Source of the DNA: Bolinopsis microptera
Taxonomy: Eukaryota; Ctenophora; Tentaculata; Lobata; Bolinopsidae
NCBI RefSeq assembly: GCF_026151205.1
Contig: NW_026971810.1
Span: 1 to 42,747 of the forward strand
Direction: 5' to 3'
Length of the DNA stretch: 42,747 nucleotides
Shown here: one piece after another, positions 1,746 through 24,676 of the stretch
Numbering within the stretch: the first letter of the stretch is position 1
How the letters are laid out: the number at the start of each line of letters is the position of its first letter
Made by a program: the position numbers and the translations under genes
The notes under the pieces: model-generated
The model's database searches: none
Told to the model about the DNA's origin: nothing
What the model saw: the letters and a program-made list of their open reading frames with translations, nothing else

Positions 1746-2941
1746 ATTAAATGTTAGACCAAGAAATTGATCTAACACACAACTGTACTTCTGTACACTT
1801 CAATGATTGGGCTGATGACTCCAGTGAAAGGGCTGGTGACTCTAGCGAAAGTGCTGGTGACAAGGAGAAAGACCATAAACCAGGGATTCCTTCGGGAGCA
1901 TGTAAGATTATATCCAAAGTTTGTTCGCCAATGGGGTGTGTCTGGGTGTCAAAGATCTTCAAGGTGCTGTTGTGATGAACTCTAGAAGGATGGGATGGTA
2001 ATACTCGGTCTGGCCGTCTGGAAGCCCATATAATTCCAGTTCAGAAACCGATTAAGGAGGTGCGGCTACTGATGAGAAGTCTCCTTAAAGTTTATTTGGG
2101 TTAGAAACGCCATCTGGGTCCCTACCCTCGCACAAGATTATTCTCAATTTTCTTGTTGTGTTCCACAATTCTACCAATAAGTATACTTACCTTTATGTAC
2201 ATGATATCTTTCTATAGCATATTCTCTATACAATAGTGTTTCTCCTATAATAATATATTGTACATGACAGACATAGAACTTATCCTGACTGTCATCTTTT
2301 GCGGACCCTAATTCTTCCTAACAAAAACGTAGTCTGTGCTATCAGCTAGTTATAAGTGTCCAAGACTATAAATAATGTTTTTCTTCTATCCACACCCCGG
2401 GATCGAGATGTAAGCCTTCTAACGAATTACCTTCAGCAGTTCCATAACTTAAGGTAGATACCATACTATACTACTTGTATCACGTCGCGATCCCCACCGA
2501 CATGTCATTACTTTCTCTAAGTAGATCTTGAAGTGAAAATCGTTTCCGATTTTAGCGTTGATGTCGCTGAAAATTTCCGTGGTTGTTAGATTTGCCAAAA
2601 GCAAAAGTTCTTACTTCTTTCTGATCAAGGTATTCCATTAGCGTTGCATCACCATTAGCCTTAGGTAAAGGTATAAAATTCGATAACTGTTTTATCGTCT
2701 TATCGGTATCCGCATGATTTTTTGATCTAATTCTACCGGCCGAATGGCAAAGCGATAAACATTATTTTTCATAACACATCCGCGTTTTCCAACCAGTTTA
2801 AGTTAAACAAGGTTAACGGTGACCAGTCCTGTGGACAACGACATGGAGCCTATTACCTATGACTATAAATTTATAATAATGCAATTCACAGAATTGCATT
2901 TTGACGTACTTTTGGGAGTACCAAAGGGAATTAGGTCAAAG

Positions 2942-4042
2942 ACCGACCACCGCTTAAGAGCCGGTTAAGAGCCGTTTAAGAGCCGTTTAAGAACCGCTTA
3001 AGAGCCGCTTAAGAACCGTTGAAGAACCGGCTAAGAACCGGCTAAGAACCGCTTAAGAACCGGTTAAGAACCGGTTAAGAACCGGTTAAGAGCCGGTTTA
3101 GAGCCGGTCAAGAGCCGGTGAGCGGCCGCTTAAGAACCGTCTAAGGACCGCTTAAGAACCGCTTAAGAACCATTGAAGAAAAACTGCATTTAAACAACCT
3201 AAGAACCAACTTAGAGCCGTTTAAGAACCGGTTAAGAACCGGCTAAGAACCGGTTAAGAGCCGGTTAAGAACCGCCTATAGAAAACAGATTTATCTTTTG
3301 TCTTTACTCCCGCTCCCAGCCCAGCACCTCTTCACTCCCCTGCTCCCTCTCTTGTCTTTACCCTCGCTCCCGGCCCAGCACCACTCCACTCCTCCCTCTC
3401 TTGTCTTTACCCCCGCTCCCGGCCCCAGCGCCTCTCCACTCTCCTGCTCCCTTTTTTGTCTTTACTCCCGCTCCCGGCCCAGCACCTCTCAACTCCCCTG
3501 CTCCCTCTCGTCGTTACCCCCGCTCCCGGCCCCAGCGCATCTCCACTCCCCTGCTCCTTCTTTTGTCTTTACTCCCGCTCCCGGCCCCAGCACCTCTCCA
3601 CTCCCCTGCTCCCTCTCGTCTTTACCCCCGTAACTTAGAGCCGTTTTAATTTCTTAAACGGCTCTAAGTTTATTAGTAGATTTATAAATCTGTTTTCTAT
3701 AGGCGGTTCTTAACCGGTTCTTAAGCGGTCCTTAGACGGTTCTTAACCGGTTCTTAAACGGCTCTAAGTTGGTTCTTAGGTTGTTTAAATGCAGTTTTAG
3801 AGGCGGTTCTTCAACGGTTCTTAAGCGGTTCTTAAGCGGTCCTTAGACGGTTCTTAAGCGGCCGCTCACCGGCTCTTGACCGGCTCTAAACCGGCTCTTA
3901 ACCGGTTCTTAACCGGTTCTTAACCGGTTCTTAAGCGGTTCTTAGCCGGTTCCTAGCCGGTTCTTAAACGGTTCTTAAGCGGCTCTTAAGTGGTTCTTAA
4001 ACGGCTCTTAAACGGCTCTTAACCGGCTCTCAAGCGGTGGTC
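2942..4042. repeat. Foldback built from an 11-bp minisatellite
   Basis: The left arm (2942-3296) is roughly 30 degenerate copies of TTAAGAACCGG/TTAAGAGCCGG. The right arm (about 3668-4042) is the reverse complement, so the two can form a hairpin with arms of about 360 bp. The outer boundary is the matched pair GACCACCGCTT / AAGCGGTGGTC. The inner boundary is GCCTATAGAAAACAGATTTA and its complement. Landmarks such as ACTGCATTTAAACAACCTAA recur at corresponding arm positions, so the arms are true inverted copies and not independent expansions. No coding capacity. Confidence 0.9.
3299..3628. repeat. Pyrimidine-rich tandem repeat in the foldback loop
   Basis: Five to six units of about 55-62 bp follow the pattern TTTACTCCCGCTCCCGGCCC, AGCACCTCTCCACTCCCCTG, CTCCCTCTCTTGTC. 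The strand is almost purely C/T, so all three forward frames are open and give Leu/Pro/Ser-rich spurious ORFs. A small hairpin (about 3631-3673, AACTTAGAGCCGTTT facing AAACGGCTCTAAGTT) closes the loop on its right side. Confidence 0.9.
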
Positions 4043-5278
4043 GCTGTTTGCCCTATTAGCCGTACCAAAAGCGCGCAAACTAAATATATTTGACGCGCGA
4101 ATCTGTTTTTGAAAGAAACTGATCAAAGTGAAAGAGAATCTAATTTGTAATAACATCGCGCGGGGAATAATATTGGTCACGTACGTGTAATAATAAAACT
4201 ATACTATAAGTATACGAATACCTAACGATTCCCTTAAAAATAAGGATAATCTATAAATCACTTTGACGTGGGACTGGGAAGCTATTCTCGCACATTATAA
4301 CTTACGAATCCAAAATTACTAGGTCTACTTCTAGAGAAGGTTCCAAAATCAAACCAGCAATGATAAGTTTATCTTATTGAACTTTAATTAACTTTAATTT
4401 TGAATCGACACCAATTCAAATTGAACGCTCGAGAGTCTGAGAAGAGGCCCCAGCTAGGGCATAGCGTACATATATTAATATCCGTTTAACCTTAAAGTTA
4501 AATAGTCTGCCCATTTACGTTCAAGTCAACGCCCGTACGTAAACGTTTGAATGCCTCCGGGCTCCGAGCGTTCATTTTAATGTCCGTTTTTAACTTTAAA
4601 TGGATACAATGAGATAAAACTATGTTGTCGGAATTAGACAGTAAATAAACAACAATGAATAAAAATAAGTCACTAGTATAGCAATAAGCAAATAATAATA
4701 AAATTATTGCTCCTTAATTCGTGAATTTTTCATAAGACGCAAACTTGTGTTAACATAAATATAATAACATAAATATAATAACATAAATAATAATAAGGTC
4801 TCGCTGCTTGTTAACTGTGGGGCGGTTTCTTTTTTTGTTTATCACCCAGTCGTACAAGCTCCAATTCGTCTCACAGGGTGAGGCTGATGTCGATTGCGAC
4901 AGCGCTTTCATTGGAAAACTCTGTAGTTCGGGTACCTCTCAACCGAAGTTGCTCCACCAAGAGACTGGACCGTCAGAATCTTGGCTAAAACTTGAGGCAG
5001 CGTCAGTAGAGAATAAGCCTCTTTTCTCTCGGTAGAACGTGTACTGCGAAATTAAAGTATCTTCTTCTTTGTTGCGCCGTCACACCACGTGTCCATGACA
5101 TCTAGAAACTCCTTCCAAGTAGTAGAATAATATTGATTGCTCAATGAAATAAATGATTACGATTAAAATGTGGTATATAAGTCGTTCGTTTTTGGTGAAG
5201 TATTATCAGTTGCCATCATCAACAACAACAACAACAGCTATTCCAATTCCTGACATGGTACTCTTCTGTCTAATGGAC
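4043..5278. other. Non-coding interval
   Basis: No gene seen. There is a threefold AACATAAATATAAT repeat at about 4752-4795. A segment at about 4125-4190 (ATCGCGCGGGGAATAAT, then TTGGTCACGT) recurs at about 9222-9285. ACAACAACA triplets occur at 5219-5236. A 75-codon ORF at 4808-5035 has no recognisable family. Confidence 0.4.
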
Positions 5279-9852: not shown

Positions 9853-10547
9853 GCTATAAGGGCAAAATCATCGATTAGAGGCTTTTATCTTAAAGAGTGA
9901 ACCGGAACGTGAAACAGATCCTATTGCACGGTGGAGAACCAAACTAGCAACTTTTCTATTATGAATACGTTCAGTAGGTGAAATTTATTGTTATTAATTT
10001 TTACCTGTCAGATACGTAAAATAACAAAGTAATCTCTCCGTTAGGCGTTCGGGTAGGAGAAATAAGCAAGCTGATAAGAGACAATAAAATTACAAACGTA
10101 TGCAATTAGTGTGTGGCGTGAGGTATATTTACTTTAATTTTTAGTGCCGACTTTAGCCTCAATGATATCACCGCGCACCGTTAACATACTCATAGTCTGG
10201 ACAGCACCCTTCTAAATCCGAAAAGTGTCATACTTGTAGTAAATATTTGGTACAATTCGGTCCAGGACAAGCTATTAAATTTTTTGCTGCGCTCCGGTCT
10301 ATCACAGTAGTTTTCCTAATACCGTAGAGAAGTTTTTTTTTATTAACAAATAAAACTCGATTACTAGACTCCTAGCCTGATACGAACTAAATTAAAAATT
10401 GCTCATAATGAACTTATCATCTTATCATAAATAAAAATAAATGCTGTTAGCTGTGAGCTTTTGCTGGTCCCATGAATATAATTCAATGGATATGATATAA
10501 TATAAATATTCATATACTTGCACATTTACGAGTCTTCTTAATCTATT
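9853..10547. other. Non-coding interval
   Basis: AT-rich sequence with no ORF longer than 60 codons and no repeat that I could match elsewhere in the window. Confidence 0.4.
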
Positions 10548-11133
10548 ATATTACATTAGGGTGGATGGTTTTTTAATCGTATTTATGGAATTGTTACCGT
10601 TGTAAAACTTACATTATGACAGTTCAGATGGCGAAAGTTTTATCGAAAATGGACCTGTCATTGTTCTGGAAATAACAATAATAAACAATAATATCTATGA
10701 CCAATTTAACCATATTAAGAAATGTGGTCGGTGATCCAGTATTGAGCATATGTGCAACTGTGTGAGTTCAGTATTCTAATTGCCCCCTTCAAGCAGCTAA
10801 GGTGCGTCTTACTAGCAGTCATGTGACCGAGATCACGTGATAACACCTTTAACTAACTTATTGCCCTGAGGATCAATTGGTACAATGTGTATTGAGGTAA
10901 ATTGGTCGGGGTATGTTTTATTATATAATATCAGTATTTACACTGAAACATTCAATAGCTTTCCTTAGCTGTTGGAACAGCGAGAGACCAAAATATTAGA
11001 TGTTAACCCTGAGCAAATTGTAGCTTTTGTTGTACATTTAATATAATCAATAATACTACATACTACCTTGTCGGACTTTATTTAAACGGACTTTAGTTCA
11101 TAGTTGGATGCTAGAAGCCCAAGTTTACAGTTT

Positions 11134-14100
11134 ACACTGCACAGAATACTCTATAGTAACACGGTACACTGCACAGAATACTCTATAGTAACACGGTACA
11201 CTGCACAGAATACTCTATAGTAACACGGTACACTGCACAGAATACTCTATAGTAACACGGTACACTGCACAGAATACTCTATAGTAACACGGTACACTGC
11301 ACAGAATACTCTATAGTAACACGGTACACTGCACAGAATACTCTATAGTAACACGGTACACTGCACAGAATATTCTATAGAAACACGGTACACTGCACAG
11401 AATACTCTATAGTAACACGGTACACTGCACAGAATACTCTATAGTAACACGGTACACTGCACAGAATACTCTATGATAACACGGTACACTGCACAGAATA
11501 TTCTATAGTAACACGGTACACTGCACAGAATACTCTATAGAAACACGGTACACTGCACAGAATACTCTATAGTAACACGGTACACTGCACAGAATACTCT
11601 ATAGTAACACGGTACACTGCACAGAATACTCTATAGTAACACGGTACACTGCACAGAATAATCTATAGTAACACGGTACACTGCACAGAATATTCCATAG
11701 CAACACGGTACACTGCACAGAATACTCTACAGTAACACGGTACACTGCACAGAATACTCTACAATAACACGGTACGCTGCACAGAATACTCTATAGTAAC
11801 ACGGTACACTGCACAGAATACTCTATAGTAACACGGTACACTGCACAGAATACTCTACAGTAACACGGTACACTGCACAGAATACTCTATAGTAACACGG
11901 TACACTGCACAGAATATTCTATAGTAACACGGTACACTGCACAGAATACTCTACAATAACACGGTACACTGCACAGAATACTCTATAGTAACACGGTACA
12001 CTGCACAGAATACTCTACAATAACACGGTACGCTGCACAGAATACTCTATAGTAACACGGTACACTGCACAGAATACTCTATAGTAACACGGTACACTGC
12101 ACAGAATACTCTATAGTAACACGGTACACTGCACAGAATACTCTACAATAACACGGTACGCTGCACAGAATACTCTATAGTAACACGGTACACTGCACAG
12201 AATACTCTATAGTAACACGGTACACTGCACAGAATACTCTACAGTAACACGGTACACTGCACAGAATACTCTATAGTAACACGGTACACTGCACAGAATA
12301 CTCTACAATAACACGGTACGCTGCACAGAATACTCTATAGTAACACGGTACACTGCACAGAATACTCTATAGTAACACGGTACACTGCACAGAATACTCT
12401 ACAGTAACACGGTACACTGCACAGAATACTCTATAGTAACACGGTACACTGCACAGAATATTCTATAGTAACACGGTACACTGCACAGAATACTCTACAA
12501 TAACACGGTACACTGCACAGAATACTCTATAGTAACACGGTACACTGCACAGAATACTCTATAGTAACACGGTACACTGCACAGAATACTCTACAGTAAC
12601 ACGGTACACTGCACAGAATACTCTATAGTAACACGGTACACTGCACAGAATACTCTACAATAACACGGTACACTGCACAGAATACTCTACAGTAACACGG
12701 TACACTGCACAGAATACTCTATAGTAACACGGTACACTGCACAGAATACTCTACAATAACACGGTACGCTGCACAGAATACTCTACAGTAACACGGTACA
12801 CTGCACAGAATACTCTATAGTAACACGGTACACTGCACAGAATACTCTATAGTAACACGGTACACTGCACAGAATACTCTATAGTAACACGGTACACTGC
12901 ACAGAATACTCTACAATAACACGGTACGCTGCACAGAATACTCTATAGTAACACGGTACACTGCACAGAATATTCTATAGTAACACGGTACACTGCACAG
13001 AATACTCTACAATAACACGGTACGCTGCACAGAATACTCTATAGTAACACGGTACACTGCACAGAATACTCTATAGTAACACGGTACACTGCACAGAATA
13101 CTCTACAGTAACACGGTACACTGCACAGAATACTCTATAGTAACACGGTACACTGCACAGAATACTCTACAATAACACGGTACACTGCACAGAATACTCT
13201 ACAGTAACACGGTACACTGCACAGAATACTCTATAGTAACACGGTACACTGCACAGAATACTCTACAATAACACGGTACGCTGCACAGAATACTCTACAG
13301 TAACACGGTACACTGCACAGAATACTCTATAGTAACACGGTACACTGCACAGAATACTCTATAGTAACACGGTACACTGCACAGAATACTCTATAGTAAC
13401 ACGGTACACTGCACAGAATACTCTACAATAACACGGTACGCTGCACAGAATACTCTATAGTAACACGGTACACTGCACAGAATACTCTATAGTAACACGG
13501 TACACTGCACAGAATACTCTACAGTAACACGGTACACTGCACAGAATACTCTATAGTAACACGGTACACTGCACAGAATATTCTATAGTAACACGGTACA
13601 CTGCACAGAATACTCTACAATAACACGGTACACTGCACAGAATACTCTATAGTAACACGGTACACTGCACAGAATACTCTATAGTAACACGGTACACTGC
13701 ACAGAATACTCTACAATAACACGGTACACTGCACAGAATACTCTATAGTAACACGGTACACTGCACAGAATACTCTATAGTAACACGGTACACTGCACAG
13801 AATACTCTATAGTAACACGGTACACTGCACAGAATACTCTATGATAACACGGTACACTGCACAGAATACTCTATAGTAACACGGTACACTGCACAGAATA
13901 CTCTATAGTAACACGGTACACTGCACAGAATACTCTATAGTAACACGGTACACTGCACAGAATACTCTATAGTAACACGGTACACTGCACAGAATACTCT
14001 ACAGTAACACGGTACACTGCACAGAATACTCTATAGTAACACGGTACATTGCACAGAATACTCTATAGTAACACGGTACACTGCACAGAATACTCTATAG

Positions 14101-15117
14101 TAACACGGTACACTGCACAGAATACTTTATAGTAACACGGTACACTGCACAGAATACTCTACAGTAACACGGTACACTGCACAGAACACTCTATAGTAAC
14201 ACGGTACACTGCACAGAATATTGTATAGTAACACGGTACACTGCACAGAATACTCTATAGTAACACGGTACATTGCACAGAATACTCTATAGTAACACGG
14301 TACACTGCACAGAATATTCTATAGTAACACGGTACACTGCACAGAATACTCTACAGTAACACGGTACACTGCACAGAATACTCTATAGTAACACGGTACA
14401 CTGCACAGAATACTCTACAGTAACACGGTACACTGCACAGAATACTCTATAGTAACACGGTACACTGCACAGAATATTGTATAGTAACACGGTACACTGC
14501 ACAGAATACTCTATAGTAACACGGTACATTGCACAGAATACTCTATAGTAACACGGTACACTGCACAGAATATTCTATAGTAACACGGTACACTGCACAG
14601 AATACTCTATAGTAACACGGTACACTGCACAGAATACTCTATAGTAACCGGTACATTGCACAGAATACTCTATAGTAACACGGTACACTGCACAGAATAC
14701 TCTATAGTAACACGGTACACTGCACAGAATACTCTATAGTAACACGGTACACTGCACAGAATACTCTATAGTAACACGGTACACTGCACAGAATACTCTA
14801 TAGTAACACGGTACACTGCACAGAATACTCTACAATAACACGGTACACTGCACAGAATACTCTATAGTAACACGGTACACTGCACAGAATACTCTATGAT
14901 AACACGGTACACTGCACAGAATACTCTATAGTAACACGGTACACTGCACAGAATACTCTACAGTAACACGGTACACTGCACAGAATACTCTATAGTAACA
15001 CGGTACACTGCACAGAATACTCTATAGTAACACGGTACACTGCACAGAATACTCTATAGTAACACGGTACACTGCACAGAATACTCTATAGTAACACGGT
15101 ACACTGCACAGAACACT
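11134..15117. repeat. 32-bp tandem array, about 124 monomers
   Basis: The monomer reads ACACTGCACAGAATACTCTA then TAGTAACACGGT. Variants are few and recur: TATAGTAAC, TACAGTAAC, TACAATAAC (usually followed by GGTACGCTG), and TTCTATAG. One monomer near 14646 is a base short (AACCGG). From about 12530 the order of variants repeats after 16 monomers: the TACAGTAAC unit ending at 12600 is followed by the same series as the one ending at 13112, a 512-bp period. This is higher-order repeat organisation from segmental amplification. There is no ORF through the array. Confidence 0.97.
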
Positions 15118-15291
15118 GTTCGGATATTGTACACAATATAGTCAAACTGTACGGAGATTGTACCTAATATAGTCACACTGTTCGGAGATTGTAAAACGTC
15201 TGCCCGAGAATTAGGTTTAAAATACTCTAAGGTGAACCTTTCTCCGAGATCTGGTTTTAAAACGGTACGAGATAAATTTTTGCGGTAAATT
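15118..15291. repeat. Degenerate repeat next to the satellite
   Basis: About three units of roughly 35 bp share CACTGTTCGGAGATTGTA and CAATATAGTCA. They sit only on the right side, between the array and the right arm. They may be a diverged precursor or a second satellite type. Confidence 0.6.
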
Positions 15292-15873
15292 GTAAACTTG
15301 GGCTTCTAGCATCCAACTATGAACTAAAGTCCGTTTAAATAAAGTCCGACAAGGTAGTATGTAGTATTATTGATTATATTAAATGTACAACTACAAGCTA
15401 AAATTTGCTCAGGGTTAACATCTAATATTTTGGTCTTTCACTGTTCCAACAGCTAAGGAAAGCTATTGAATGTTTCAGTGTAAATACTGATATTATATAA
15501 TAAAACATACCCCGACCAATTTACCTCAATACACATTGTACCAATTGATCCTCAGGGCAATAAGTTAGTTAAAGGTGTTATCACGTGATCTCGGTCACAT
15601 GACTGCTAGTAAGGCGCACCTTAGCTGCTTGAAGGGGGCAATTAGAATACTGAACTCACACAGTTGCACATATGCTCAATACTGGATCACCGACCACATT
15701 TCTTAATATGGTTAAATTGGTCATAGATATTATTGTTTATTATTGTTATTTCCAGAACAATGACAGGTCCATTTTCGATAAAACTTTCGCCATCTGAACT
15801 GTCATAATGTAAGTTTTACAACGGTACCAATTCCATAAATACGATTAAAAAACCATCCACCCTAATATTACAT

Positions 15874-16116
15874 AATACACGACTTCTCATTTCATAATTC
15901 ATATCAAACATTTATATACTCATGCAGCGAGAACAAAATATTTAGTGTCGAAACTAACACAAGCAGTCATATTGCCGTGTTGTAAAACGGCCGACCGTTT
16001 ACTACAATTGTTAAGTCAAGTCAAATCGAATCAAAACATAGTTTTAAAAAACGTATACGCTATCTGCAACATTTGACATCTAGCACAACGTGCACAGTCT
16101 GGTTTAGTCAACAATG
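15874..16116. other. Non-coding interval
   Basis: Nothing recognised beyond a TCAAGTCAAATCGAATCAAA stretch of short repeats near 16013. Confidence 0.3.
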
Positions 16117-16195
16117 TTACCTGGGAACCTCAGGCTATCATGTTCATTAATGAATAGAGATTCGGCGGAATGACAGGCTGAGCGCTGCCCAATAA
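16117..16195 (-). mobile_element. TTAC family, copy B (complete)
   Basis: Read on the minus strand, this 79-bp copy runs from TTATTGGGC-AGCGCTCAG through CCTGTCATTCCGCCGAATCT and a palindromic ATTAATGAACAT segment to CCTGAGGTTCCCAGGTAA. The same string is found at 37080-37194, 38662-38716, 40761-40798 (right half) and 42348-42433. The ends TTAC(C)TGGG / CCCAGGTAA are inverted, as in a MITE. No coding capacity. Confidence 0.8.
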
Positions 16196-16274
16196 TCAAC
16201 AATGCAGCTCTAAACGCTGCGGACTTGCTATTATAAAAATTGATGAGCGCTCGATTTGAAATCCCGACGCGCAT

Positions 16275-16502
16275 AAAAACTGCCACAAACTGCTACTAAC
16301 TGCCACTAACTGCCACTAACTGCCACTAACTGCTACTGCCGCGCGCAAATGCGTGGGCGCGATTGTAGCAGTTAGTGGCAGTTAGTGGCAGTTTGTGGCA
16401 GTTTGTAGCAGTTAGTGGCAGTTTGTGGCAGTTAGTGGCAGTTTGTGGCAGTTAGTGGCAGTTTGTGGCAGTTAGTGGCAGTTTGTAGCAGTTAGTGACA
16501 GT
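16275..16502. repeat. Inverted 10-12-bp minisatellite
   Basis: Left side (about 16280-16337): CTGCCACTAACTGCCACTAA repeats. After a GC-rich centre (CCGCGCGCAAATGCG), the complementary unit GTTAGTGGCA/GTTTGTGGCA is repeated about 13 times to 16502. The left arm is about half as long, so a partial hairpin of about 60 bp can form. The strand switch of the same unit suggests growth by template switching. Confidence 0.9.
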
Positions 16503-17454
16503 TTCTTTGCACTTAGCTCCTCCTGTGTAGCGCGATACGTTACTGTGCCGCGCCGCGCACTCAATGAGGCTTCTCACAGCTAGATCGGCAATATCAAATA
16601 TGCGCTGCCGTAGAGCTTAAAATATACGCAAAAATTATTTGAGGCATGGCAATTTTGAAAAAAACGACGCACGATCAACAAATAAAAACTTACATCTTTT
16701 TACAAAGTTAGTTACCTTATTTGCTGTTTCATAATATTGGCGCAGGTTACAAGTTATATTTCTACCGATATTATTGATACATGTTTCGTATCCCAAATAT
16801 CAAAGATATTTCGCGCGCGAAAAGTGGCATGCAACGTATGTCATGGTCAACGATATCACATTCTCTAAATTGCGCGCATTGCAGTAACTTCTTTCAAACT
16901 TCACAAATCGAGATTAAATCTTTTGCAATGTATTCAGTATCAATTTGTGCAATTATATACGCTAATCTAACTGCGTACAATGCGATTACACTATTAATTG
17001 CACGAGGTGCAGCCGAGTGGAATTAATTGATACAATAATCGCACGAGGCAAAGCAGTTATTTCACGAGGCGCAGCCGAGTGCAATAAATGGTGTAATCGT
17101 ATTATACATGCAGTTGGATTCGCGTATAACTCCACGCCTCTGATGTTATAACCAGTGTAATTAATTTATAATCGCACCGACTTTGTTGTTATAAGTAGCT
17201 CTCAAAACAATGCGATTATAAACTAATCGCACTGTTTTGAGATGCTGAGCAGCTGATATTTTGATTTCCGGAGTGTACTCTCAAACAAATGAAACAGTCT
17301 AGTCATTAGATAAACAAATTTTGAAGTAGATTAATGTTTCATATATCTGAAAACGTTTGCATAAACAATTTTAAATCAGTTTAAAAATCTTAAGAACAAT
17401 TAGATTTACAATTAATAAGATATAGTAACTAAGAAAAAAGCCTTAATACACAAT
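16503..17454. other. Non-coding interval with short repeats
   Basis: At about 16809-16840 CGCGCGCGAAAAGTGGC and TGCAACGTAT recur at about 41240-41268. At 17000-17085 GCACGAGG(T/C)GCAGCCGAGTG occurs twice with a partial third unit. At 17200-17243 18-bp arms (CTCAAAACAATGCGATTA / TAATCGCACTGTTTTGAG) flank five bases. This lies downstream of the recombinase gene; no terminator or poly(A) signal stands out beyond AATTAATAAG-type AT-rich sequence. Confidence 0.5.
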
Positions 17455-18807
17455 TCAATTAAAATTAAATGTCATATTGTGTATCACAGCATTGTCTCCG
17501 ATCAATTTTTTTATCTTCGAGAAAACATTACGGTTTTGCAGGGATGTCAGTCTGTCGTCAGTTTGTGAGGATGTAATTCTGTTCTCACTCTGTGAAGATG
17601 ACGGTCTGTTGTCAGTTTGTGAGGATGACGGTCTGTTGACAGTTTGTGAGGATGACGGTCTGTTCTCACTCAGTGAAGATGTTAGTTTGTTGTTACAATA
17701 TTGTGAGGAAGACAGTATGTTGTTTATGTGTGAAGGAGACAGCCTGTTGTGTGAAGATAACAGCCTGTTGCTACTATGTGAAGATGACGGTCTGCTGTCA
17801 GTCTCACTCAGTGAGGATATTATTCTGCTAGCAGTCCTCCTCTTTTTTGGCGAGATAGTCACTGATATATCCGTAAAGAGTCTTTTCCTTGATTTGGGTG
17901 TGAAATCTTCACTGGTATTGTCAGAGGAACCTCTAGCTCTGTTTGCTTGCGGTGGACTTTGAGGTGATCCTACAAATACCGGCGGAGCTGATTGCTTCTC
18001 GTATGTGCTGTTTGTCTGGAACAATAGGTTAGATATCTTTGTGCCGACTTCATGATCCATTGTGTCATAGTTTATCAAAGACGTAGCGCTCTTATGACCG
18101 GTGTAGGCCATAATTTGCTTTAGCACAACATTTTTCCTCAGCAAACTTGACACCACCATTTTCCTGATGGAGGTATTGGATATTTTGCGATCCCCGACAT
18201 CAATCTCCGAGACAACAACCATCTTTTTCACAGCTCCTGCTATTTTGTTCACTCCCGAAGGGCTGCTTATGAACCAGGGACCGTCCTTCAGACAAGCTTT
18301 ACGGGGATCTTTTGACATTGTTCTTGCCAGGTTGAGAAACATGGGCGCATCCGGATCGTCGGCAACCCCTGGTCTCATGGAGGAGTACTTCAAGAAAGTC
18401 GCAACGGGACAGAAGTGTAAACAGTCCGGATCAGCAGAAAGAACTCCAACTCCATGTCTCATATTCCGTGGATCTTCCCCCTGCCGTGTTTTACTGAGGC
18501 GTTCTTTATCCAATGTGATAAATTGGTTCCCATCAACCACCTCAATTATCAAATCCCCGTATCTGGTTTCTCTCAGCTCAGTTCTTGCCCTCCGTCCCAG
18601 CGACAGACATAAGATGACCATTGAATTCCACAGTGCTGCTGGACTGTGTGTTCCCGCCAACTTACGGACAAACAATTCCCTAACCTCTGAGGTGGTAAGC
18701 ATATTGATAGAATTTTCTAAGTTTCCTTTACCAGATCGCTTACTTAGTTTGCAGGCAGCTCCAAGGTGGGACGACTTTGCCTTCCAGTTATTGACGGATA
18801 TGACCAT
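17455..18807 (-). CDS. Tyrosine recombinase-like protein (Crypton / ZMYM-QRICH1 type)
   Basis: A 450-codon open frame, the longest in the window. Residues about 38-255 match the DUF3504-type C-terminal recombinase domain of Crypton transposases and the Crypton-derived ZMYM2/QRICH1 proteins. Visible landmarks are ALWNSMVILCLSLGRRARTE (58-77), ERLSKTRQG (102-110), HFCPVATFLKYSSMRPG (131-147), PWFISSPSGVNKI (177-189), NTSIRKMV (211-218) and YTGHKSATSLINYD (235-248). The tyrosine-recombinase set maps to Arg72/73, Lys106, Arg215, His238 and Tyr247, but the HxxR histidine (NHSxRK in relatives) is Thr212. The tail carries basic clusters (KSRKR 305-309, KKRR 321-324) and about ten SSSQTxNRP-like repeats (335-425) instead of a known DNA-binding domain. 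A stop lies in frame just upstream of this ATG, and the N-terminal core-binding domain is missing; a candidate lies at 20858-21097. Decayed transposon or domesticated gene both remain possible. Confidence 0.85.
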   Translation of the reverse strand: MVISVNNWKAKSSHLGAACKLSKRSGKGNLENSINMLTTSEVRELFVRKLAGTHSPAALWNSMVILCLSLGRRARTELRETRYGDLIIEVVDGNQFITLDKERLSKTRQGEDPRNMRHGVGVLSADPDCLHFCPVATFLKYSSMRPGVADDPDAPMFLNLARTMSKDPRKACLKDGPWFISSPSGVNKIAGAVKKMVVVSEIDVGDRKISNTSIRKMVVSSLLRKNVVLKQIMAYTGHKSATSLINYDTMDHEVGTKISNLLFQTNSTYEKQSAPPVFVGSPQSPPQANRARGSSDNTSEDFTPKSRKRLFTDISVTISPKKRRTASRIISSLSETDSRPSSSHSSNRLLSSHNRLSPSHINNILSSSQYCNNKLTSSLSENRPSSSQTVNRPSSSQTDNRPSSSQSENRITSSQTDDRLTSLQNRNVFSKIKKLIGDNAVIHNMTFNFN

Positions 18808-18866
18808 CTCACGACTTCATCCTCATCTTTTAAACTTTTTTTTTTTTTAAAACTTTGTCGTGAGAT
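18806..18866. repeat. Short inverted repeat around a T tract
   Basis: ATCTCACGAC (18806-18815) and GTCGTGAGAT (18857-18866) flank TTTTAAAC, a run of T and AAAAC. It marks the upstream edge of the recombinase frame and the junction with unrelated sequence. It may be an insertion or deletion scar. Confidence 0.7.
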
Positions 18867-21606: not shown

Positions 21607-21654
21607 TGTCTAAAGGCCTCCCCCAGCCTCGTATCTTAGGATTAGATTTGCAAA

Positions 21655-22050
21655 AATTCCTGAGACACAGGTGCAAAAGTTAAGACAGCAGAATAATCCT
21701 AAGACAGCAGAATAATCCTAAGACAAAATTTAAGCAATTCTGAGACAGCGAAAAATCCTGAGACAAAATTTAAGAAATCCCGAGACAGCGAAAAAACCTG
21801 AGACAAAATTTAAGAAATCCCAAGACAGCGAAAAAACCTGAGACAAAATTTAAGAAATCCCAAGACAGCGAAAAAACCTGAGACAAAATTTAAGAAACCT
21901 AAGACGCGCGAAAAAACCTGAGACAAAATTTAAGAAATCCCGAGACAGCAAAAAATCCTGAGACAAAATTTAAGAAAACCTGAGACAGCAAAAAATCCTG
22001 AGACAAAATTTAAGAAAACCTGAGACAGCGAAAAATCTTTAGATAGAATT
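21655..22050. repeat. 40-bp subterminal repeat array, left arm
   Basis: Nine to ten units of about 40 bp alternate GAGACAAAATTTAAG with GAGACAGCGAAAAA. Starts at 21761 and 21801 show the 40-bp period. The mirror array lies at about 24290-24600. Regular subterminal repeats are common transposase-binding regions in DNA transposons. Confidence 0.85.
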
Positions 22051-22236
22051 TATACAATAACCACAAGAATATACATGGATATTACATCTTTTTATTTCTT
22101 TTAAAGAATATAATAAATACAATATTACTAGGTAATAGGTATAGTAGGAATGTCAATAAGTCAATAGAATTTGTCTGAAATCTCTATGTGCCTGCTAATG
22201 AAGTGAGTATCCTAGATCATATCTTTACAGGTAGGA

Positions 22237-22261
22237 CCCCCCCCCCCCCCCCCCCCCCCCC
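22237..22261. repeat. Poly(C) tract, 25 C
   Basis: An uninterrupted run of 25 C marks the inner end of the left arm; the right arm has only a short GGGGCCCCC there. Other long C tracts are at 22731-22744, 35649-35679 and 37644-37662. Exact lengths may be affected by sequencing. Confidence 0.85.
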
Positions 22262-23396
22262 TTACCCCTCCTTAATCTGATTAAAAGCTACAAAAACTTC
22301 CAGAAATAAGATGGCTGGTTAAAACCTACCTTTGAAAAGCTCTGATGAACCTGCCCGTGGAGAAATTAACACACTTAACTTCACCTCATATCAATTGAGC
22401 AATAAATGCCTATTTATCGCTTATTACTTCATTTATTTTGGATGTACAGTGTGCTTCGTAACTAATTATAATTATTATAATATATCAGTAAATGTGTAAG
22501 ATACTATACCTGAGTGATTACTCCGAACTTTCTAAAAAGCTACAAAGTTAACTTTCTAATAAGCTACGTTGTAGCTGCTACAACGACAACTAATCTTTCG
22601 TTTTACTCCCTACTGTACTAGTTTACTCGTCAATCCAGGTATATGACTATGAGAATGGTCTTGAAACTCTGAATTTAAGAGGGAAGCAGTTTTGGGGACG
22701 GGGAGATTGAAGCGGGTGGGCGACAAATGACCCCCCCCCCCCCCTATTGTAAGCCCCCGGCTTACAATTGACCCCCCATGCAATTACACTGAGTCAATTG
22801 ATCTCAGTATAATAACATGGGGGTCAAGTGTCAGGGGGTTAATTGTCGTACTAAGCCCTAGATTGTACCTGCTAATGAGGTGAATATCCCAGATCATAGC
22901 TTTACAGGTAGGCCTGTATAATAGAACCCTGATGTTAAAGCGGACATCACCTTCCCCTCCCTAATGTCTGATTGAAAGATTCCTTTCTTAATGTACGAAT
23001 AAGAAAACAAGAATTTTTACTAGTACTATCTTTGTATCTTTAATACACTATCTACTTATTGACTAGCTAGGCTTGCTAAAATTCATCGGCAAATTACCGC
23101 TGCTCGAGTTACCTAGCCAGGCCCATTTCAGTTTTGAGTACTGGAGTCGGTTATCTACAAAGTAGAGTCAAAGCCTAGCTTTTTTGTAACTGGCAAGTGC
23201 TTTTCCGGATTCAATTTTCAAATAGTCGTGTATTTTCAGATTATTCTTCATTATGTCCTCAATCCTGAGCACTGGGACTACTTAAGTTTTTGCTACTATC
23301 TGAATTATTTGCTCAAGCTACTGCCACTGACTCGCTAGGTACAAAGGTTTATTTCCTATTTATCATGAAAAAATTTGTGTGTTGGGCTAAAGTTTA

Positions 23397-23475
23397 CTTG
23401 ACGTCCACGCAGGTTTGAACTCCCGACCTACTGCAGAGCTAGCCAATCGCCTAGCCGCTGAGCTACTCGGGTGAT
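23397..23475 (-). mobile_element. tRNA-derived SINE head
   Basis: On the minus strand TAGCTCAGCGG (complement of 23455-23465) is a perfect RNA polymerase III box A, and 33 bases downstream GAGTTCAAACC (complement of 23412-23422) fits box B (GWTCRANNC). A CGGG..CCTG T-arm stem surrounds box B. The acceptor stem and a clean anticodon stem are not present, so this is a tRNA-derived head and not a functional tRNA. The tail is not delimited. It sits in the loop of the foldback element. Confidence 0.7.
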
Positions 23476-24676
23476 GCTCTATTAAAATTTTCGATGTACA
23501 TATTTATCGCATACAATCCTCTATTTTGAGTTTGTCATAATTGTAATCGGGAAGTGGGAACATTAACAACTCTTCTGCATTTAATTGGAACTGTCTGTAC
23601 TGTGTACACGATAAAACACATAAGATAAATACAAAGATTGTGTACACTACTGTGCTTATATGGAAAACCCAACTAGACTATAATATATCTTCAGAGTTTC
23701 AGGATCATTCTCACATATACTCATAGTTAATAGTTAATAGCACTATGTTTACAGTATGCACTGAAGGGGTATCCTAGGAAGTTTCTTGAACTTTTAACAG
23801 GTACCCATCCTCATTTAACCCTCAATTAAGTTTCCTATCATTCGGCTGAGTCGACCGAGGAGATCGCATAGATCCAATGGATCCTTAGTTACTCCCTAGA
23901 CTAGGTGACACTGGGATTCAAACTCATATACCTGGATTGACGAGTAATCCAGTACAGTAGGGAGTAAAACGAGAGACTAGTTGTCGTTGTAACTTATTAG
24001 AAAGTTAACTTTGTAGCTTTTCAGAAGTGGCATAAGGAGGGAGGGGGATGATGTCCGCTATAACATCGGGGCCCCCATTATACAGTCCTACCTGTAAAGA
24101 TATGATCTAGGATACTCACTTCATTAGCAGGCACATAGAGATTTTAGACAAATTATATTGACTTATTGACATTCCTACTATACCTAGTAATATTGTATTT
24201 ATTATATTCTTTGAAAGAAATAAAAAGATGTAATATATCCATATTGTATATTCTTGTGGTTATTGTATAAATTCTATCTAAATATTTTTCGCTGTCTCAG
24301 GTTTTCTTAAATTTTGTCTCAGGATTTTTTGCTGTCTCAGGTTTTCTTAAATTTTGTCTCAGAATTTTTCGCTGTCTCGGGATTTCTTAAATTTTGTCTT
24401 AGGTTTTTTCGCGCGTCTCAGGATTTCTTAAATTTTGTCTCAGGTTTTTTCGCTGTCTCGGGATTTCTTAAATTTTGTCTCGGGATTTTTCGCTGTCTTG
24501 GGATTTCTTAAATTTTGTCTCAGGATTTTTCGCTGTCTTAGGTTATTTTGACATCTCAGGTTCGCTTAAATTTTGTCTCAGCTTTTTTTGCAGTCTTAGC
24601 TTTTCTTAAGCAGTTTGTCTTATGAATTTTTGCAAATCCAATCCTAAGATCCGAGGCTGGGGGAGGCCTGTCTAAA

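Follow-up and report, generated by a model that had tools for sequence, protein, structure and literature searches.

How satellite repeats come to jump between chromosomes is a long-standing question that is usually argued from scattered arrays. A 42,747-bp stretch of the genome of the ctenophore Bolinopsis microptera (assembly GCF_026151205.1, contig NW_026971810.1, positions 1 to 42,747 of the forward strand; hereafter the window) allows the question to be put to a single unit: Between positions 10557 and 15864 lies a 5,308-bp element with terminal inverted repeats (TIRs), most of which is a satellite array. Is this array cargo that moves with the element? We regard it as probable that this is a DNA transposon of a non-autonomous, foldback-like kind, which moves together with its satellite as a whole, is mobilised in trans by gene-bearing copies, and has its array remodelled in the course of repair. 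The case is built on one assembly (264,652,675 bases in 232 contigs, of which the window is contig C51; the locus labels L and contig labels C used below are places in this same genome), and most of the chain is visible there: uninterrupted target sites, target duplications, ordered monomers on three chromosomes and a candidate source of transposase, with every match to the 32-bp unit assigned a place. The genome searches scored the best candidates only, so that absences are weak except where sequence patterns were counted.

Insertion and sister copies of the element

The original prediction, made from the letters of the window alone, had placed the element's two ends exactly. Its arms (left, 576 bp, 10557–11132, forward strand, beginning TAGGGTGGATGGTTTTTTAATCGTA; right, 577 bp, 15288–15864, reverse strand) are near-identical as claimed, with 569 of 577 aligned columns the same and one gap, but are slightly longer than the 572 bp first given. 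The predicted 9-bp duplication, ATATTACAT, is perfect on both sides (10548–10556 and 15865–15873, forward strand), and the 32-bp array between the arms (11133–15117, forward strand; unit TACACTGCACAGAATACTCTATAGTAACACGG, about 124 units) extends over 3,985 bp, i.e., 124.6 copies with 95% matches according to Tandem Repeats Finder (TRF), or 75.1% of the element where about 75% had been estimated. A 31-bp motif in 2.5 copies adjoins the array (15115–15193, forward strand), followed by a stretch with one copy of an 80-bp-type inner repeat (15194–15287, forward strand), of which 15200–15276 matches the gene-bearing copy L023 at 90%. The element was also said to be without a transposase, and this holds for the window copy: The list of open reading frames contains none of 120 or more amino acids inside it.

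If the element had been inserted, its flanks, once joined, should resemble an uninterrupted sequence. Searching the genome with both flanks joined by one ATATTACAT (best 40 of 1,554 candidates scored) returned at least 31 places that matched without interruption over query positions 3–797 (795 of 797 bases), at least 27 of them at 97–99% identity and at least four at 89–91%; further matches elsewhere were partial or in two pieces. Both of the uninterrupted places that were read (L049 and L050) contain a single ATATTACAT. Because the joined flanks match uninterrupted places, with one ATATTACAT in those read, the window element is, on these alignments, an insertion into a copy of a dispersed repeat, with 9 bp duplicated; the two parts of that repeat now lie at 10157–10556 and 15874–16270 (both forward strand). 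An empty allele had been named as a check, and the empty sites do hold one ATATTACAT, but they are paralogous, i.e., other copies of the target repeat, and not allelic. Just to the right of the element, positions 16277–16504 contain opposed 10-bp arrays (AACTGCCACT and GCAGTTAGTG).

The window arm has at least 43 matches in the genome (best 40 of 75 candidates scored), and similar arms pair at many loci. The 25-bp terminus occurs 24 times exactly and 25 times with up to two mismatches, compared with none for the reversed control. Because the control yields no termini and because arms pair at many loci, a chance origin of the shared ends is excluded. As 22 of the 24 exact termini form 11 pairs, there are 11 complete copies with identical 25-bp termini, and the arms are not confined to the window locus; the other two termini (C12:9753113 and C8:8565814) are without an exact partner. 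Seven complete copies carry the 32-bp array: the window copy (124.6 units by TRF), L013 on C3 (132.6), L014 on C10 (92.6), L015 on C4 (40.9), L016 on C2 (85.6), and L018 and L019 on C1 (86.6 and 70.6). In L017, on C12, a 36-bp array is split into opposed blocks, one of 29 and one of 51 units; a copy of 17.7 kb on C11 (L029, L062, L063 and L030) contains an 11-bp repeat in three blocks; and L023 (C7) and L025 (C11) are 10.3-kb complete copies with 8-bp duplications that contain a gene instead of a satellite array. One arm of L014 harbors a 680-bp insertion.

That other copies would have duplications and different array lengths had been foreseen, and the seven carriers indeed range from 41 to 133 units, with the qualification that duplications in the family are 8 or 9 bp and not all 9. 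Ten of the 11 complete copies have one, four of 9 bp (ATATTACAT, TTGAAAGGT, CTACCTCGC and GTGGAATGT) and six of 8 bp (TTGATCGG, TTAAATAT, TTGACGAT, AGATCTAG, ACATGCCC and ATATTCAA); the eleventh, L015, sits in a run of G. Five of the six 8-bp duplications (those of L013, L017, L018, L025 and the C11 copy) could also be read as 9 bp, because there the left duplication is preceded by A, the base with which the element ends; L023 is the exception. By their sequences, then, these are sister copies with the same ends at different sites and with differing duplications.

The same evidence bears on whether the unit is a transposon at all. The inverted repeats might instead flank an ordinary satellite locus that was spread by segmental duplication, for which we find nothing beyond the inverted arms themselves; duplications of differing sequence in ten of 11 copies and the uninterrupted copies of the target speak so strongly against it that we consider it scarcely credible, and for the window copy it is refuted because empty sites exist. 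Segmental duplication and an assembly artefact were both ruled out, the copies lying on chromosome-sized contigs with differing duplications.

More distant or damaged relatives extend the family. L020 and L021 contain 31-bp arrays, to which L021 adds an 80-bp array; L022 has a 115-bp array, arms that are 15–18% different and the duplication CTGTAGTCC; and L042 and L043 contain a 6/12-bp array and have arms that match those of L022 at 77–87%. L020, L021, L027, L032 and L037 are truncated, end-damaged or decayed.

The 32-bp satellite as cargo

All 792 genomic matches to the 32-bp unit with up to three mismatches (382 + 410) could be placed: 624 (79%) are in the seven elements, 166 in L036 (C10:17743006–17748669), an array of about 170 units without an arm match, and two in the decayed L037.

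To read the arrays sequentially, their monomers were sorted into variants (53 types, 22 of them seen once), and runs shared at array edges were tested against 2,000 shuffles of monomer order. In L014, L015 and L016, which lie on C10, C4 and C2, the first 15 monomer variants are identical in order, a result that none of the 2,000 shuffles reached. L014 and L016 have their first 23 variants in common, in order, and by eye also a string of variants near the other edge, where the strict edge count is zero, the last pieces being cut differently. L018 and L019 have five right-edge monomers in common (0 of 2,000 shuffles). Because L014, L015 and L016 share ordered edge monomers on different chromosomes, the array is, on this sequence evidence, one that travelled inside the element in at least these three copies; and because their lengths differ despite the shared edges, such arrays are evidently subject to internal change in length while the edges persist. 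The junctions between array and element are the same on both sides in six of the seven carriers, L015 differing to the right of its array.

Two further observations concern the 32-bp unit. The arrays of L036 and of six of the seven carriers (not L015) end at the same 32-bp phase, in TGCACAGAA; the sequences that follow differ, yet both read ACTG one base in. At L039 (C5:662300–663700), a 19-bp array (GTACACTGGAGTTAACACG) resembles the 32-bp unit with two internal gaps, and none of 2,000 shuffles scores as high.

Replacement of cargo and a candidate partner

The divergence among arms (computed with gap columns left out) can be set beside the difference in what lies between them. Both arms of L017 are identical to one arm of L018 (L017_L, L017_R and L018_R) and are 0–0.9% from those of the 32-bp carriers, and the cargo of L017 is the 36-bp satellite. 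The left arm of the C11 copy is 0.7–1.6% from those of the same carriers and the cargo is the 11-bp satellite; for L023 and L025, the arms are 1.6–4.1% away and the cargo is a gene. Array length and even the kind of satellite are thus different between copies whose arms, as sequenced, are nearly identical, and the cargo is apparently turning over faster than the ends, unless the arms have been gene-converted. This proviso amounts to a rival explanation: If gene conversion homogenises the arms, the replacement of cargo need be neither fast nor recent. Arms that are identical between chromosomes (the three from L017 and L018) would be expected under gene conversion, and the arm tree is poorly resolved, with three of 17 inner branches well supported, for which reason we did not put the exchanges in order. 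However, identical arms are also what a recent burst from a single source would give, and conversion across the family must be incomplete, since the gene-bearing copies group together in a supported cluster of their own (100/98). We think it rather unlikely that gene conversion accounts for the pattern.

The 32-bp and 36-bp arrays adjoin exactly the same base of the 31-bp motif (which there begins CACTGTTCGGATATTG), and the decayed L037 has nearly the same junction. We tentatively suggest that the ends may constitute a constant carrier cassette in which one satellite has time and again given way to another at a fixed inner junction, at a pace above that of arm divergence, while granting that the odds are somewhat against this. 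If it were true, the transposon family would serve as a shuttle, taking up different satellites, reshaping them and delivering them anew. In any event, near-identical ends with different satellites make the capture and replacement of satellites directly testable.

Where did the satellites come from? Two explanations of the 32-bp array have to be weighed, and we find them nearly even. According to the first, the element captured a pre-existing satellite, and the arm-less L036 is the donor or the donor's descendant. L036 is without an arm match and consists mostly of consensus units, and other cargoes also occur outside this family: The 36-bp unit of L017 is found, at about 80–94%, in another inverted-repeat family (L046) and a relative of it (L047), and the 115-bp unit of L022 recurs, at 94–97%, in arrays without these arms (L044 and L045). 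Because L044 and L045 are 96–97% alike over positions 1–2814 of L044, up to the fetched edge, they lie in yet another dispersed repeat. However, L036 has private variants and is without several that are frequent in the elements, so that today's copies were not made directly from it; as it does share the commonest monomer variants with them, L036 is, to judge from its monomers, neither a direct donor nor a direct copy of today's element arrays. In addition, the 32-bp unit is already present in the decayed L037, which is about 9% away, and its junction there is nearly the same, which makes any capture old unless L037 decayed fast. On balance, we give capture of the 32-bp array close to an even chance.

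The second explanation is that the 32-bp satellite was born inside the element from a shortened 80-bp inner repeat, and that the arm-less C10 array is a later escape. Three blocks of the 32-bp unit (CTGCaCAG, AATACTCTA and ACGGTAC) recur in the 80-bp unit with their circular order preserved, and 16 of 2,000 dinucleotide shuffles score as high. The 31-bp motif, present in about 2.5 copies in eight carriers (the window copy and L013 to L019), forms long arrays in L020 and L021; and the concentration of 624 of the 792 units within elements would also follow. Set against this, the likeness between the 32-bp and 80-bp units is post hoc and modest and involves large gaps, the relation of the 32-bp to the 31-bp unit is at chance (721 of 2,000 shuffles), and the 36-bp and 115-bp cargoes, which are present elsewhere in the genome, would go unexplained. 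Birth inside the element is accordingly possible, at something less than an even chance, for the 32-bp array, and the evidence favors capture for the 36-bp and 115-bp arrays. Other comparisons of units were likewise at chance (32-bp with 36-bp, 1,077 of 2,000 shuffles; 31-bp with 80-bp, 1,846 of 2,000).

Separately, L046, together with L064 and L065 (C4:7540800–7556300), forms a near-perfect palindrome whose arms align in two pieces over about 7 kb, at 99.4–99.6% identity, and which holds 36-bp repeats related to the cargo of L017.

A non-autonomous element needs a source of transposase, and the original prediction was of an autonomous relative with the same ends, TAGGGTGG, belonging to the Mutator-like elements (MULEs) or to hAT. 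The relative was found in L023 and L025, with identical 25-bp termini, but its assignment to either group was not borne out, as there is no match in Pfam. The gene in these copies has 11 exons, ten introns that are all GT..AG, and a product of 756 amino acids with no stop in either copy. The two products differ at seven residues, and the eight changes between L023 and L025 make them too close for an estimate of selection; comparison with more distant genes gave ratios of nonsynonymous to synonymous substitution (dN/dS) of 0.267 over 753 codons for L033, a relative that has other arms and likewise open exons, and 0.256 for L034, a broken relative. A copy of the gene on C12 has small gaps in exons 5 and 6, a stretch between exons 7 and 8 is conserved, and the protein has at least 103 exon matches in the genome (best 59 of 234 candidates scored). 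The gene of L023 and L025 is, from its sequence context, the likely source of transposase for the family.

On the reading that we prefer, i.e., a transposon moving with its satellite, the 10.3-kb gene-bearing copies with identical termini would mobilise the satellite carriers in trans. Excision would leave a break, from which repair synthesis would run inward from the conserved arms; slippage of this synthesis within the tandem repeats would make the array grow or shrink, and a switch to another satellite as template would replace the cargo. Gap repair with slippage and template switching would keep the arms and the array edges and alter the middle, as is seen. Unequal exchange between sister arrays would explain the change in length and not the new cargo. 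The opposed arrays in L017 and L020 suggest that one half may at times be copied from the other.

Several observations weigh against this reading. Mobility is read from the arrangement of sequences in one assembly. Shared monomer order rises above the shuffles in just three of the seven arrays, plus the one edge of L018 and L019; neither the window array nor that of L013 has an ordered run clear of the shuffles in comparison with the other carriers, and the six consensus units that the window copy and L019 share at the left edge were reached by 18 of 2,000 shuffles. The common descent of the window and L013 arrays is presumed on account of shared junctions and shared variants. The 1,422 bp beside the array of L015 have no match among the other fetched loci (the genome was not searched), and the identity of the arms could partly reflect gene conversion, which would make the replacement of cargo look too fast. 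Finally, the 756-residue product matches no Pfam family at E up to 10 and has no convincing match in the PDB (best E 1.4), so that the name of putative transposase is argued from the position of its gene, which lies between the same ends, from constraint, and from its membership of a multicopy family.

The window contains other sequences of possible interest. On the reverse strand, 17455–18816 is an open frame of 453 amino acids with a weak match to Phage_integrase (E 0.01, below Pfam's cut-off), perhaps the tyrosine recombinase of a mobile element. An inverted-repeat structure at 21614–24669, with opposed 40-bp tandem arrays (21695–22052 and 24284–24542) and arms up to 94.6% alike, looks like a second foldback element; and an inverted pair at 2932–4055, 94% alike over about 370 bp, consists of 11-bp arrays (ACCGGTTAAGA) in opposite orientations with a 55-bp tandem repeat between them. 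Elsewhere in the genome there are TRPM-type genes (23 family matches), which suggest an animal host; of five TRPM-type segments compared with solved structures (from two of three loci and three of six further pieces), three had 6co7, the Nematostella channel, as best match, and none was identical. A search for the STING family gave no match, in this genome or in any of the control genomes.

Relation to known elements

With its termini, its duplication, no transposase of its own, an internal array and several copies, the window element answers in all respects to a satellite-bearing non-autonomous TIR element, whether foldback-like or resembling a miniature inverted-repeat transposable element (MITE). 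Its superfamily is less plain. hAT elements encode a hAT transposase domain and make 8-bp duplications; here Pfam detects no hAT transposase domain, and four of the ten duplications are 9 bp. In foldback (FB-like) elements, tandem repeats form part of the long inverted arms. L017 and L020 have opposed arrays; in the 32-bp carriers, the arms enclose the array, and one side only has the 31-bp motif. MULE target duplications are 8–11 bp (PMC6446971), a range that includes the 8 or 9 bp of ten of our 11 complete copies, and the long TIRs of MULEs, commonly hundreds of bp, are matched by arms of 576 and 577 bp. A MULE transposase domain was found neither in the partner product nor in two open reading frame pieces of a distant relative, L048, which have no match to any Pfam family at E up to 10, a result with which a very divergent MULE is compatible. 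Arm length and duplication size, then, resemble those of Mutator and foldback elements, and we do not assign the family there because the test for a transposase domain failed.

Among the closest known systems is Tetris, a foldback element of Drosophila virilis, which is non-autonomous, has long inverted repeats and 8–10-bp duplications, and contains internal tandem repeats that are also found as longer satellite-like arrays; the Mutator superfamily is suggested for it by its authors (PMC4079207). The two have in common a non-autonomous nature, long inverted repeats, a similar size of duplication, and internal tandem repeats that also occur in arrays. In Tetris, however, a single repeat (TIR-220) lies within the arms, and no autonomous copy was found (PMC4079207), whereas in the present family the arms enclose the array, which accounts for 75% of the window copy and is of different kinds in copies that are otherwise near-identical, and there are gene-bearing copies with the same termini. 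The miDNA4 element of Xenopus, called a Tc1/mariner MITE, is likewise a non-autonomous TIR element that contains a satellite, the copy number of which varies, and for satellite-bearing MITEs, miDNA4 included, capture of a pre-existing tandem repeat has been proposed (PMC12628747, PMC9659126). Compared with miDNA4, as described in reviews, the present elements are kilobases in size, with 576-bp arms and 8–9-bp duplications, and bear several unrelated satellites in one genome. Because reviews already list satellite-bearing MITEs and Tetris, the original view of a satellite-carrying mobile unit as rarely caught was overstated.

Two other families share particular features. Tm1, a Mutator/foldback family of root-knot nematodes, has composite inverted repeats with tandem repeats and mostly 9-bp duplications, and its transposase-encoding and non-autonomous members share ends, as do the gene-bearing and non-autonomous copies here; its tandem units, of 13–15 bp, are in the arms, whereas ours are between them (PMC3169594). 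A text search of the Tm1 paper did not find the word 'satellite' (PMC3169594). Rehavkus elements make 9-bp duplications and have a minisatellite that either adjoins the 3' TIR or lies in the inverted termini, and Rehavkus-1_TC, of about 9.5 kb, harbors a 164 bp satellite (PMC6446971, PMC10218199). Here four of ten duplications are 9 bp and six are 8 bp, five of the latter being readable as 9, and 2.5 copies of the 31-bp motif lie near the right arm; however, the partner product is without any match in Pfam, including the PHD finger that is a feature of the Rehavkus transposase.

Satellite-carrying TIR elements are, therefore, already known, and in the open-licence literature searched we found no description of the exchange of different satellites within one TIR family. 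What appears to be new relative to that literature is the combination of unrelated satellites exchanged between arms that are 0–0.9% apart, a candidate autonomous partner, and a full genomic placing of the satellite; compared with the systems above, this family shows one way in which satellite repeats can be both spread and exchanged.

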